Source of the DNA: a virus
Virus record (IMG/VR): IMGVR_UViG_3300035698_001626
Coordinates: 1 to 43,312 of that record
DNA: 43,312 nt
Strand: one strand, 5' to 3'
In this document: positions 5,246-40,502 of the stretch, piece after piece
How positions within the stretch are numbered: the stretch's first letter is position 1
Layout of the letters: every line of letters begins with the position of its first letter
Program-made: the position numbers and the translations under genes
Notes under the pieces: generated by a model
What the model was told of the DNA's origin: nothing
Databases searched by the model: none
The model's input: the letters and a program-made list of their open reading frames with translations, nothing else

Positions 5246-5261
5246 CTAGAAGGGGGATGTT

Positions 5262-5558
5262 ATGACAGCATCAGAAGAAACAAAAGTAGCACAAATGCAG
5301 GATGATTATGAAATCCGCATCACCGAACTTGAAGCAGAGCTGGCAAACAGCGTGCCAGTGGAGAAAGTGCAGGGTGCCCTTGATTGTATTATTAAATATG
5401 GCGGGTTTGATGGTGCGCACCATAAAGACTGGGTTCTTGACCAAGTTGTTAGAACCTTAATAGACGATGAAATTAAATATAATGAGTGGGTTGCGCTTGC
5501 CAAGTCAGGTGAAGAGGGTGAAAACACTTATGATTATAGTGAGGGCATAGCACCATAA
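5262..5558 (+). CDS. Conserved phage protein with HHKDWVLDQ motif
   Basis: Predicted 98 residues in two modules. Residues 1-32 (MTASEETKVAQMQDDY, ITELEAELANSV) are a leucine-zipper-like helix shared with other small proteins of this genome. The rest (GGFDGAHHKDWVLDQVVR ... GEEGENTYDYSEGIAP) matches a widespread phage protein family of unknown role. AAGGGGGATGTT precedes the ATG. Just after its stop lies a remnant of the KQNCPLLN tail found in its paralogs, which suggests the C-terminal module was swapped in. Confidence 0.65.
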   Translation: MTASEETKVAQMQDDYEIRITELEAELANSVPVEKVQGALDCIIKYGGFDGAHHKDWVLDQVVRTLIDDEIKYNEWVALAKSGEEGENTYDYSEGIAP

Positions 5559-5580
5559 AACAAAATTGCCCGTTGTTGAA
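5557..5580 (+). repeat. Vestigial KQNCPLLN tail segment
   Basis: These 24 bases match the reverse strand of 38504-38527 with one mismatch, and of 38725-38748 slightly less well. There they encode the C-terminal KQNCPLLN of two paralogs. Here they follow the stop codon of the 5262 gene and are not translated with it. Reads as a leftover of gene-module exchange. Confidence 0.6.
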
Positions 5581-5598
5581 CATTAAAAGGAGAGTACA

Positions 5599-5781
5599 AT
5601 GATTGAGAATCCGAAGGTTGGTATGAAGGTGGTGGTTAGTGGCCATTCCATAATCGTAGAAGAAGGTGATGTTGGTACTGTGGAAAGCTACGATGGAGGT
5701 TCAACTGTTAAAGTTAAAATGGACAAAGATAATGATATTTGGAGTTTTTCCCGCAAGAGTTTAACCGAAATCAAGGAGTAA
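5599..5781 (+). CDS. Small beta protein, N-terminal half of split paralog
   Basis: Predicted 60 residues (KVGMKVVV...EGDVGTVESYDGG, SFSRKSLTEIKE), which looks like a small beta-barrel of the type found in KOW/SH3-like domains. It matches residues 1-61 of the 138-residue protein at 40642. Here the ORF stops at TAA where the fused copy reads GAT, and the second half restarts two codons later. AAGGAGAG precedes the ATG. Function unknown. Confidence 0.7.
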   Translation: MIENPKVGMKVVVSGHSIIVEEGDVGTVESYDGGSTVKVKMDKDNDIWSFSRKSLTEIKE

Positions 5782-39020: not shown

Positions 39021-39224
39021 TTAACGTTTTTTAATATTTAGTAAACTTTCCACGCTCAATCCCGTGAACTTGGCAATCTTTTTGATAATATCACGGTGTG
39101 GGTTCGTTTTAACGCCCCTGCATATCTCTGAAAAGTAACCCTGCGATATATCGCAAAACTCGCAACAGTCAATTTTCTGCCCAGGTGACATATACTTATA
39201 ATATTTCTGCGGTGTCGTTTTCAT
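39021..39224 (-). CDS. HTH regulator (Cro/CI-like), nested start
   Basis: Predicted 67 residues. SPGQKIDCCEFCDISQGYFSEICRGVKTNPHRDIIKKIAKFTGLSVESLLNI follows the XRE helix-turn-helix layout, with Cys20, Cys21 and Cys24 in the recognition region. AAAGGGAAACA gives a very good ribosome site for ATG 39224. The ORF is open upstream in the same frame to ATG 39491, so a longer fused form is possible. As the only clear repressor-type protein here it is the candidate reader of the TTGACA/TTTGCCAAA operators. Confidence 0.7.
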   Translation of the reverse strand: MKTTPQKYYKYMSPGQKIDCCEFCDISQGYFSEICRGVKTNPHRDIIKKIAKFTGLSVESLLNIKKR

Positions 39225-39491
39225 TGTTTCCCTTTCTAGATTATTAAATTCATAGTTTGTAAGGTGTGACCAAAAACAAATGCCACTGTTAAAATACATT
39301 ACAGCTTTATGGTTAATTTTAGGACGGCACACTAGGTTTTCTGCGTCACAATAACCTATTGCATGTTTTACTAAAACGCACCGATTCTCAAGAATAAACT
39401 TTTCACGATTACATAAAACACCTAAATCTAAAAGATGTCCCGCGCGCCATTCCTGCCAAGTAAACAAGCTGGGATCAATTTTCGGTATCAT
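39021..39491 (-). CDS. Cys-rich radical-SAM neighbour, in frame with HTH
   Basis: ATG 39491 lies 17 bases inside the end of the radical SAM gene and opens a 156-residue frame. The first 89 residues (MIPKIDPSLFTWQEWRAGHLLDLGVLCN ... GYCDAENLVCRPKINHKAVMYF) form a Cys/aromatic-rich domain; the last 67 are the HTH protein. No stop separates them although the HTH part has its own strong ribosome site. Overlap with the radical SAM gene suggests the N-terminal domain is its partner or substrate. Whether one fused protein or two products are made cannot be decided from sequence. Confidence 0.5.
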   Translation of the reverse strand: MIPKIDPSLFTWQEWRAGHLLDLGVLCNREKFILENRCVLVKHAIGYCDAENLVCRPKINHKAVMYFNSGICFWSHLTNYEFNNLERETMKTTPQKYYKYMSPGQKIDCCEFCDISQGYFSEICRGVKTNPHRDIIKKIAKFTGLSVESLLNIKKR

Positions 39492-40440
39492 AAAACTTAA
39501 CCATATTATTATAATCAACGCAAACATCAAGACAGTTTTTATTACATATCGGGTCGTTAAAACAATTATGGTTTTTATGCCAATCAATGCGTTCTTTCCT
39601 CATGGTATTAGAAACTATACCTATGGGCGCACCATTTTCACGCATATGTATAATACATGGGTAGTGATGATTCCCGCGTATTGCACTATCGTCTATAACT
39701 AGGGGGCATCTAATATTGTCAGTGCTTTTAAGTCCCCTAACATTGCGACCAAGTTTAAAATTATTAACCCGATAATTTAATATTCTATGTTTTTTTAATA
39801 TATATTTTGGTATCTGTGAAACAAACTCAAGTGTTTTATTATATTGCGCTGCTGTTAATATACGTATATCCGCAACCCCGAGTTGGCTTGCAAATTTTAT
39901 TGTTTCAACAGATTGAGCAATGTTTTTTTCATCAAACACGCATCCAGTAGTAACGTATGTGCGCTTGGATAGCTCTCTTATATTATTCACAACGTTATTC
40001 CATTGCCCACCAACACCATCCATTTTATCACCAAAAGATGAACAGCAGGCATCTAGTGAAATAGAGAAATCATTGCACCCGTGTTTTAATAAATCTAAAT
40101 AATATTCTAGCGACTTTGAACCATTGGTTGAAATAGCAATGCGCTCAACACCTCTTTTTTTTGCATGTTCTACAATATCATCTAACCAACTAACCATTGT
40201 AGGCTCACCACCAGAAAATCTAATATTTTTTAACCCATCATCACACCATAGATCAACTACTTTCTTGGCATACTCAAAAGAAATATCTGCATCTTTTTTT
40301 GTGCCCCGACAATAAGGACACTTGAAATTACATTTTGACGTTACTAACAACTCGCATCTTTGCATCGGCGATGTTGGCGATAAATTTTTTGCTCGATAGT
40401 TTGATAGTGTATAAAATCCAATATCGCTTAAATCTTTCAT
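39475..40440 (-). CDS. Radical SAM enzyme with SPASM-like Cys tail
   Basis: Predicted 321 residues. C37-x3-C41-x2-C44 (CNFKCPYC) binds the SAM [4Fe-4S] cluster; FSGGEPT is the SAM-contacting GGE motif, and STNGS and SLD follow in order. C-terminal Cys residues (RCPLV, PCIIH, NHNCFNDPICNKNCLDVC) look like a SPASM/twitch auxiliary-cluster region, which is linked to peptide or protein modification; viperin-type enzymes lack it. First gene of the leftward early operon, directly under its promoter, and overlaps a Cys-rich partner ORF. Substrate unknown. Confidence 0.8.
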   Translation of the reverse strand: MKDLSDIGFYTLSNYRAKNLSPTSPMQRCELLVTSKCNFKCPYCRGTKKDADISFEYAKKVVDLWCDDGLKNIRFSGGEPTMVSWLDDIVEHAKKRGVERIAISTNGSKSLEYYLDLLKHGCNDFSISLDACCSSFGDKMDGVGGQWNNVVNNIRELSKRTYVTTGCVFDEKNIAQSVETIKFASQLGVADIRILTAAQYNKTLEFVSQIPKYILKKHRILNYRVNNFKLGRNVRGLKSTDNIRCPLVIDDSAIRGNHHYPCIIHMRENGAPIGIVSNTMRKERIDWHKNHNCFNDPICNKNCLDVCVDYNNMVKFYDTEN

Positions 40441-40472
40441 GGTTCCCCCATTGCTAAATTAATCTTATATTA

Positions 40473-40502
40473 TATATAGCCTACAGCGTATCGGTTTGTC
40501 AA
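40473..40502 (-). promoter_or_regulatory. Leftward early promoter
   Basis: On the minus strand TTGACA (40502-40497) is 18 nt from TATATA (40478-40473), itself overlapping a TATAAT. A TTTGCCAAA word lies just upstream (around 40508-40516), as in the late operator cluster. It would drive the radical SAM gene 33 bases downstream. Confidence 0.65.

Follow-up and report, generated by a model that had tools for sequence, protein, structure and literature searches.

The locus described here raises the question of what a virus does with a radical SAM enzyme whose gene overlaps that of a small neighboring protein, and in particular whether the enzyme modifies this neighbor or works together with it on another substrate. 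The window, by which we mean the whole stretch of DNA that was analyzed, is a 43,312-base IMG/VR virus record with head and tail genes of the podovirus type (a head-tail adaptor of phrog_332, a terminase and a major head protein). An earlier note on this DNA had described a SPASM-like radical SAM enzyme and an overlapping Cys-rich partner as a likely peptide- or protein-modifying system, and had held that homologs of the enzyme in contexts without the partner would count against this view.

The gene pair in the window

The pair and the elements around it are laid out as follows.

39475..40440, minus strand: radical SAM enzyme, the core of the system (321 aa; Pfam Radical_SAM E 3.4e-19; viral family of at least 130 IMG/VR loci)
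40309..40332, minus strand: CxxxCxxC motif (C37, C41, C44), predicted to bind the [4Fe-4S] cluster that binds SAM; all three Cys 100% conserved in 85 aligned relatives
40201..40212, minus strand: GGEP motif, residues 77-80, 98-100% conserved in 85 relatives with GGE invariant
39520..39708, minus strand: C-terminal region with C245, C262, C299, C303 and C307, probable auxiliary Fe-S cluster (twitch/SPASM-like); Cys 97-100% conserved in 85 relatives
39475..39491, minus strand: 17-base overlap of the two genes, read from the sequence
39225..39491, minus strand: partner domain, 89 aa (31-sequence alignment A3; AlphaFold2 pLDDT 93.6; no PDB or BFVD match at E<=0.001)
39021..39224, minus strand: HTH-like C-terminal tail of the partner ORF, 67 aa (HTH_3 E 5.8e-4, below the Pfam gathering score; phrog_4, transcriptional repressor, E 1e-4)
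40469..40502, minus strand: candidate sigma-70 promoter (TTGACA 40497-40502; TATATA 40473-40478, 18-nt spacer; overlapping TATAAT 40469-40474), read from the sequence and graded weak because a consensus scan did not list it

The reading frame of the enzyme and its 17-base overlap with the next frame, which starts at 39491, are as the earlier note had given them, and the 89-residue domain with its WQEWRAG, CNREKF and GYCDAENLVC stretches is present. The second ORF as a whole (39021-39491) is nevertheless longer than this domain, for it runs to 156 codons with the HTH_3-like tail in frame behind it. This tail has its own internal ATG at 39222-39224 with a ribosome-binding-site-like AGAAAGGGAAAC ahead, and it is seen in none of the other partner domains that we aligned. 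It could either be fused to the partner as a domain or be translated by itself in frame, in which case one ORF would give two products, and it may link the window partner to DNA or regulation. The enzyme gene is the first of a leftward run, but the further claim that this run is an early operon is not established because genes for replication, terminase, head and tail belong to the same run.

Overlapping genes recur in 14 of the 18 close unfused enzyme-partner pairs of other viruses, with a few start codons uncertain, so the arrangement in the window is not a matter of chance. Both genes are also absent from 10 records with related terminases (44-57% identical), as judged from searches that had no positive control of their own but whose models do match elsewhere, and for this reason the gene pair behaves like movable cargo.

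The enzyme and its viral distribution

The enzyme exhibits the hallmarks of the radical SAM superfamily, namely CxxxCxxC, a GGEP-like motif and a match to Pfam PF04055 (Radical_SAM) of 70 bits against a cut-off of 29.5. As to its description as SPASM-like, the Pfam SPASM model gives no match in the window enzyme, and the five C-terminal cysteines are nearly invariant in its relatives. Because that match is absent we infer the auxiliary cluster from the residues themselves, which plausibly hold one such cluster. Eight Arg residues (R16, R28, R74, R193, R224, R235, R267 and R284) are 100% conserved among the 85 aligned enzyme sequences. R74 and R193 are presumably at the positions of the usual conserved Arg of radical SAM cores, and the six that lie beyond this pair suggest that the substrate is polyanionic or phosphate-rich, such as a nucleotide, a nucleotide sugar or RNA.

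A one-protein search followed by a search with a 10-sequence alignment recovered at least 130 relatives from IMG/VR, of which 80 with 48-68% identity were kept. The same 10-sequence alignment yielded 8 loci on 8 contigs among 84,980 prokaryote species, each represented by one genome. One of these loci, L097, is on a contig that also bears a terminase, which suggests a viral origin for this locus alone among the 8. This enzyme family is therefore nearly confined to viruses. A collection of phage records provided only three full-length matches, each from an uncultured phage with a genome between 485 and 735 kb. One of the three, in a 485-kb phage (L012:7947-9005; LR745208.1), has no CxxxCxxC N-terminus and is truncated, chimeric or misassembled. 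The family stays about 50% identical among phages whose sizes range from roughly 40 to over 700 kb, and it is not described in the open papers that we searched.

The partner domain and its association with the enzyme

A profile of the 89-aa domain located the partner at 32 of 86 non-redundant enzyme loci, where it is found downstream of the enzyme as in the window, upstream of it, or fused to its C-terminus. The fusions (L056, L058 and L084) are scattered on the enzyme tree, each in a different part. On this tree at least 22 changes in the presence of the partner and at least 7 in its position can be counted, figures that are approximate because many branches are weak. Of the 48 enzyme-bearing records that have no partner nearby, 47 proved to be without one when the whole record was searched, and eight further enzyme-bearing records are also without it, giving 55 enzyme-bearing records in total that do not have an intact partner. 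The 48th record is a 179-kb contig of a Candidatus Borrarchaeum weybense MAG (L094/L103), possibly an archaeal virus contig, which has the enzyme and a stop-codon-bearing copy of the partner about 130 kb away.

The reverse search of IMG/VR, which was run with two closer sub-alignments of the partner family, gave 24 partner loci, with the enzyme within 8 kb at 23 of them; the single window partner sequence as query gave no match among viruses. At the remaining locus (L116; IMGVR_UViG_3300041402_000314, a 204-kb record) there is only a distant radical SAM relative about 70 kb off. The dependence is therefore one-sided, with the enzyme required by the partner and the partner dispensable for the enzyme. 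That the enzyme and its small neighbor form a genuine functional pair, as the earlier note had supposed, is upheld by repeated gain and loss, by the three arrangements, by the three fusions and by the reverse search, and it is well supported that the partner is a dedicated but optional accessory of the enzyme.

The partner domain itself has no family match in Pfam, PHROG or NCBIfam. Its invariant residues across the 31-sequence alignment are F10, W15, G46, R56, K58, A63, W74, H76 and E81, and its median pI is 7.9. Richness in Cys is not a family trait, as no Cys of the window partner is invariant, C48 being present in 18 and C55 in 22 of the 31 sequences, while C27, C38 and C72 are hardly common to relatives. 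The AlphaFold2 model built from the 31 sequences (pTM 0.85) predicts a compact domain in which four short helices lead into three strands and a final helix. No fold in the PDB or in BFVD, a viral library, matches this model at E<=0.001, and SRP9/14, which is in its fold list, is not a significant match (TM about 0.35, E about 1).

Neighboring genes, related enzymes and the substrate

Approximately 14 loci add a third gene to the cassette, coding for a 140-aa GGDEF protein; this gene usually overlaps that of the partner or of the enzyme. The protein scores 47 bits against the Pfam GGDEF cut-off of 23.8, and with its metal, guanine and GDEF residues conserved it appears to be of the catalytic type. 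Its carriers include L019, L027 (GGDEF at 5246-5668), L049, L041, L028, L016, L066 and L095; on the enzyme tree it is restricted to a single part (4 changes), and it is absent from the window. In the viral search, all 12 of 12 close members were on enzyme-bearing contigs. A candidate GGDEF-enzyme fusion in a 735-kb phage (L011:7512-7991; LR756501.1) has N-terminal motifs in register but is not counted as a fusion because the hhalign probability is only 7.8%. At two loci (L016:3502-4215 and L066:3627-4349), genes for homing-type endonucleases of the GIY-YIG/NUMOD kind are located between enzyme and partner.

Most enzyme neighborhoods contain no RNA or nucleotide gene. Those neighbors that do recur are a glycosyltransferase (7 loci), RtcB (7) and a T4-type RNA ligase (6), while NAD synthase, nicotinate/nicotinamide phosphoribosyltransferase, adenylosuccinate synthetase, IMPDH and cREC domains each turn up once or twice. 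The two RNA ligases are no more than 2.5 kb away from the enzyme in 8 of 25 cases against 1.6 expected (P 2.5e-5), a P value that is too small because the record set deliberately took in near hits, and the general clustering of phage accessory genes weakens this enrichment as well. For example, an RNA-kinase-like gene and an RNA ligase directly precede the fused enzyme-partner gene at L084:1844-5251, and a CCA-adding-like enzyme and RtcB directly precede the enzyme at L029:755-4975. The glycosyltransferases belong to one family (L012, L025, L059, L078, L089, L100 and L011) and may hint at nucleotide-sugar chemistry, but the partner is present at none of these 7 loci. A survey of 224 jumbo phages covers RNA repair and NAD/nucleotide counter-defense without mention of radical SAM enzymes (PMC7824862). 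The RtcB, T4-type RNA ligase, cREC and NAD synthesis genes near the enzyme resemble the genes described in that survey.

A model of the natural L058 fusion (pLDDT 92.8, pTM 0.90) has BlsE, SkfB, DesII, MoaA, SuiB and viperin as its best solved structures. We take the substrates of four of these to be cytosylglucuronate (BlsE), a TDP-sugar (DesII), GTP (MoaA) and CTP (viperin), and since nucleotide, nucleotide-sugar and peptide enzymes are mixed among the matches, the substrate is not settled by them. The best whole-fold match is BlsE, a cytosylglucuronate decarboxylase (PDB 7vob/7voc; E 5e-13, TM 0.68 by target length), with which the phage enzyme shares a radical SAM core with GGEP. However, the two are only 18% identical, BlsE is a bacterial enzyme with a role in antibiotic synthesis, and we know of no BlsE partner of the kind found here. 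SkfB and other peptide-maturing radical SAM/SPASM enzymes share the core fold and the C-terminal cluster cysteines, whereas the phage system has neither a recognition domain nor a conserved substrate peptide and its partner is missing from most loci. A second Fe-S cluster has been proposed for BlsE (PMC3715490).

The earlier proposal that the enzyme modifies the partner itself, as in RiPP maturation or another form of protein modification, could draw on the gene overlap and on how strictly the partner depends on the enzyme, on the appearance of SkfB and SuiB in the list of similar structures, and on a small partner that has several Cys in some members. However, homologs of the enzyme without an intact partner proved common (the 55 records given above), the Cys are not conserved while the invariant residues are of other kinds, and no leader/core divergence, recognition domain, protease or exporter was noted. 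Nor does a precursor peptide with conserved modifiable residues always stand beside the enzyme, as a RiPP-maturing system would have it. A compact predicted fold and fusion to the C-terminus of the enzyme in three lineages fit an accessory domain better than a substrate, and we consider the partner very probably an accessory subunit; that it is itself the substrate is highly improbable. The partner might instead be a targeting adaptor that directs modification by the enzyme to some protein of the host or the phage. Peptides are the substrates of many twitch/SPASM enzymes, SkfB ranks second among the structural matches, and an optional adaptor is consistent with the patchy distribution of the partner. 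The modified protein may possibly be elsewhere in the host. We nonetheless regard this as unlikely, as neither enzyme nor partner has a Pfam match to an RRE/PqqD-like recognition domain, no PqqD-like fold is among the 50 listed partner matches, and the many invariant Arg would favor a phosphate-rich substrate.

Core similarity to MoaA and to viperins raises the alternative of a divergent member of either family that makes a modified nucleoside triphosphate. The top NCBIfam hit is MoaA (E 2e-20), the top PADLOC profile hits are prokaryotic viperins (E 6e-17), and over the core no sequence matches better than MoaA, the GTP 3',8-cyclase (PDB 1tv7, E 9.9e-18). These matches are confined to the common core (residues 28-173 of the phage enzyme for MoaA), and the scores of 73.1 bits for MoaA (TIGR02666) and 49.7 bits for viperin (NF038283) are far under the equivalog cut-offs of 284 and 180, by which membership in either family is rejected. 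Furthermore, the GTP-binding Arg17 of MoaA has no exact counterpart in the alignment, the context is viral and not defensive as for viperins, and the phage enzyme has an additional C-terminal region with five auxiliary Cys in a pattern of their own, which together leave this alternative quite improbable. A narrower form of the reading that we prefer holds that the enzyme modifies tRNA or other RNA, with the partner as an RNA-binding module, in protection from or restoration after host anticodon nucleases. Nearby genes for RtcB, an Rnl1-type ligase, and kinase-like and CCA-adding-like proteins point in this direction, and the helix-strand-strand-strand-helix order that ends the partner resembles small RNA-binding folds, SRP9/14 being in the fold list. 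Yet that fold match is not significant, the median partner pI is 7.9, and RNA-repair neighbors are missing at most loci, such that this specific form is a doubtful one.

The reading that we prefer, which we advance tentatively and as a whole with somewhat less than even confidence, is that of a radical SAM enzyme which is specific to viruses, acts on a nucleotide or RNA, and has an accessory subunit that is dedicated to it but optional; the presence of SkfB, SuiB and other peptide-modifying enzymes among the structural matches argues against it. The enzyme would have a MoaA/BlsE-like core with one SAM-binding [4Fe-4S] cluster and probably one auxiliary cluster. It would cleave SAM to give a 5'-deoxyadenosyl radical that takes a hydrogen atom from the substrate, after which the electron would settle on the auxiliary cluster. 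The partner, judged from the natural fusions alone, would most likely dock at the C-terminal side of the enzyme and would present or select the substrate without being the substrate itself, and some phages would supply the small GGDEF nucleotidyl-cyclase-like protein in addition. With RNA ligases and nucleotide/NAD genes as recurring neighbors, this system may serve to restore or alter nucleotides or tRNA when phage and host are in conflict.

Viral radical SAM enzymes are mostly regarded as borrowed host genes, for example those that are QueE-like. Cellular genomes all but lack the family described here, and its dedicated partner, which has no known fold, has been fused to it three separate times. 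While the class of chemistry is known, a virus-only family with such a partner is new. It is conceivable, if improbable in this full form, that phages possess an exclusive system of enzyme, new-fold accessory and sometimes a minimal GGDEF cyclase that makes a novel modified nucleotide or tRNA modification to counter nucleotide-based or tRNA-cleaving host defense. As the family is virus-only, the enzyme likely does something that is needed only by the virus.
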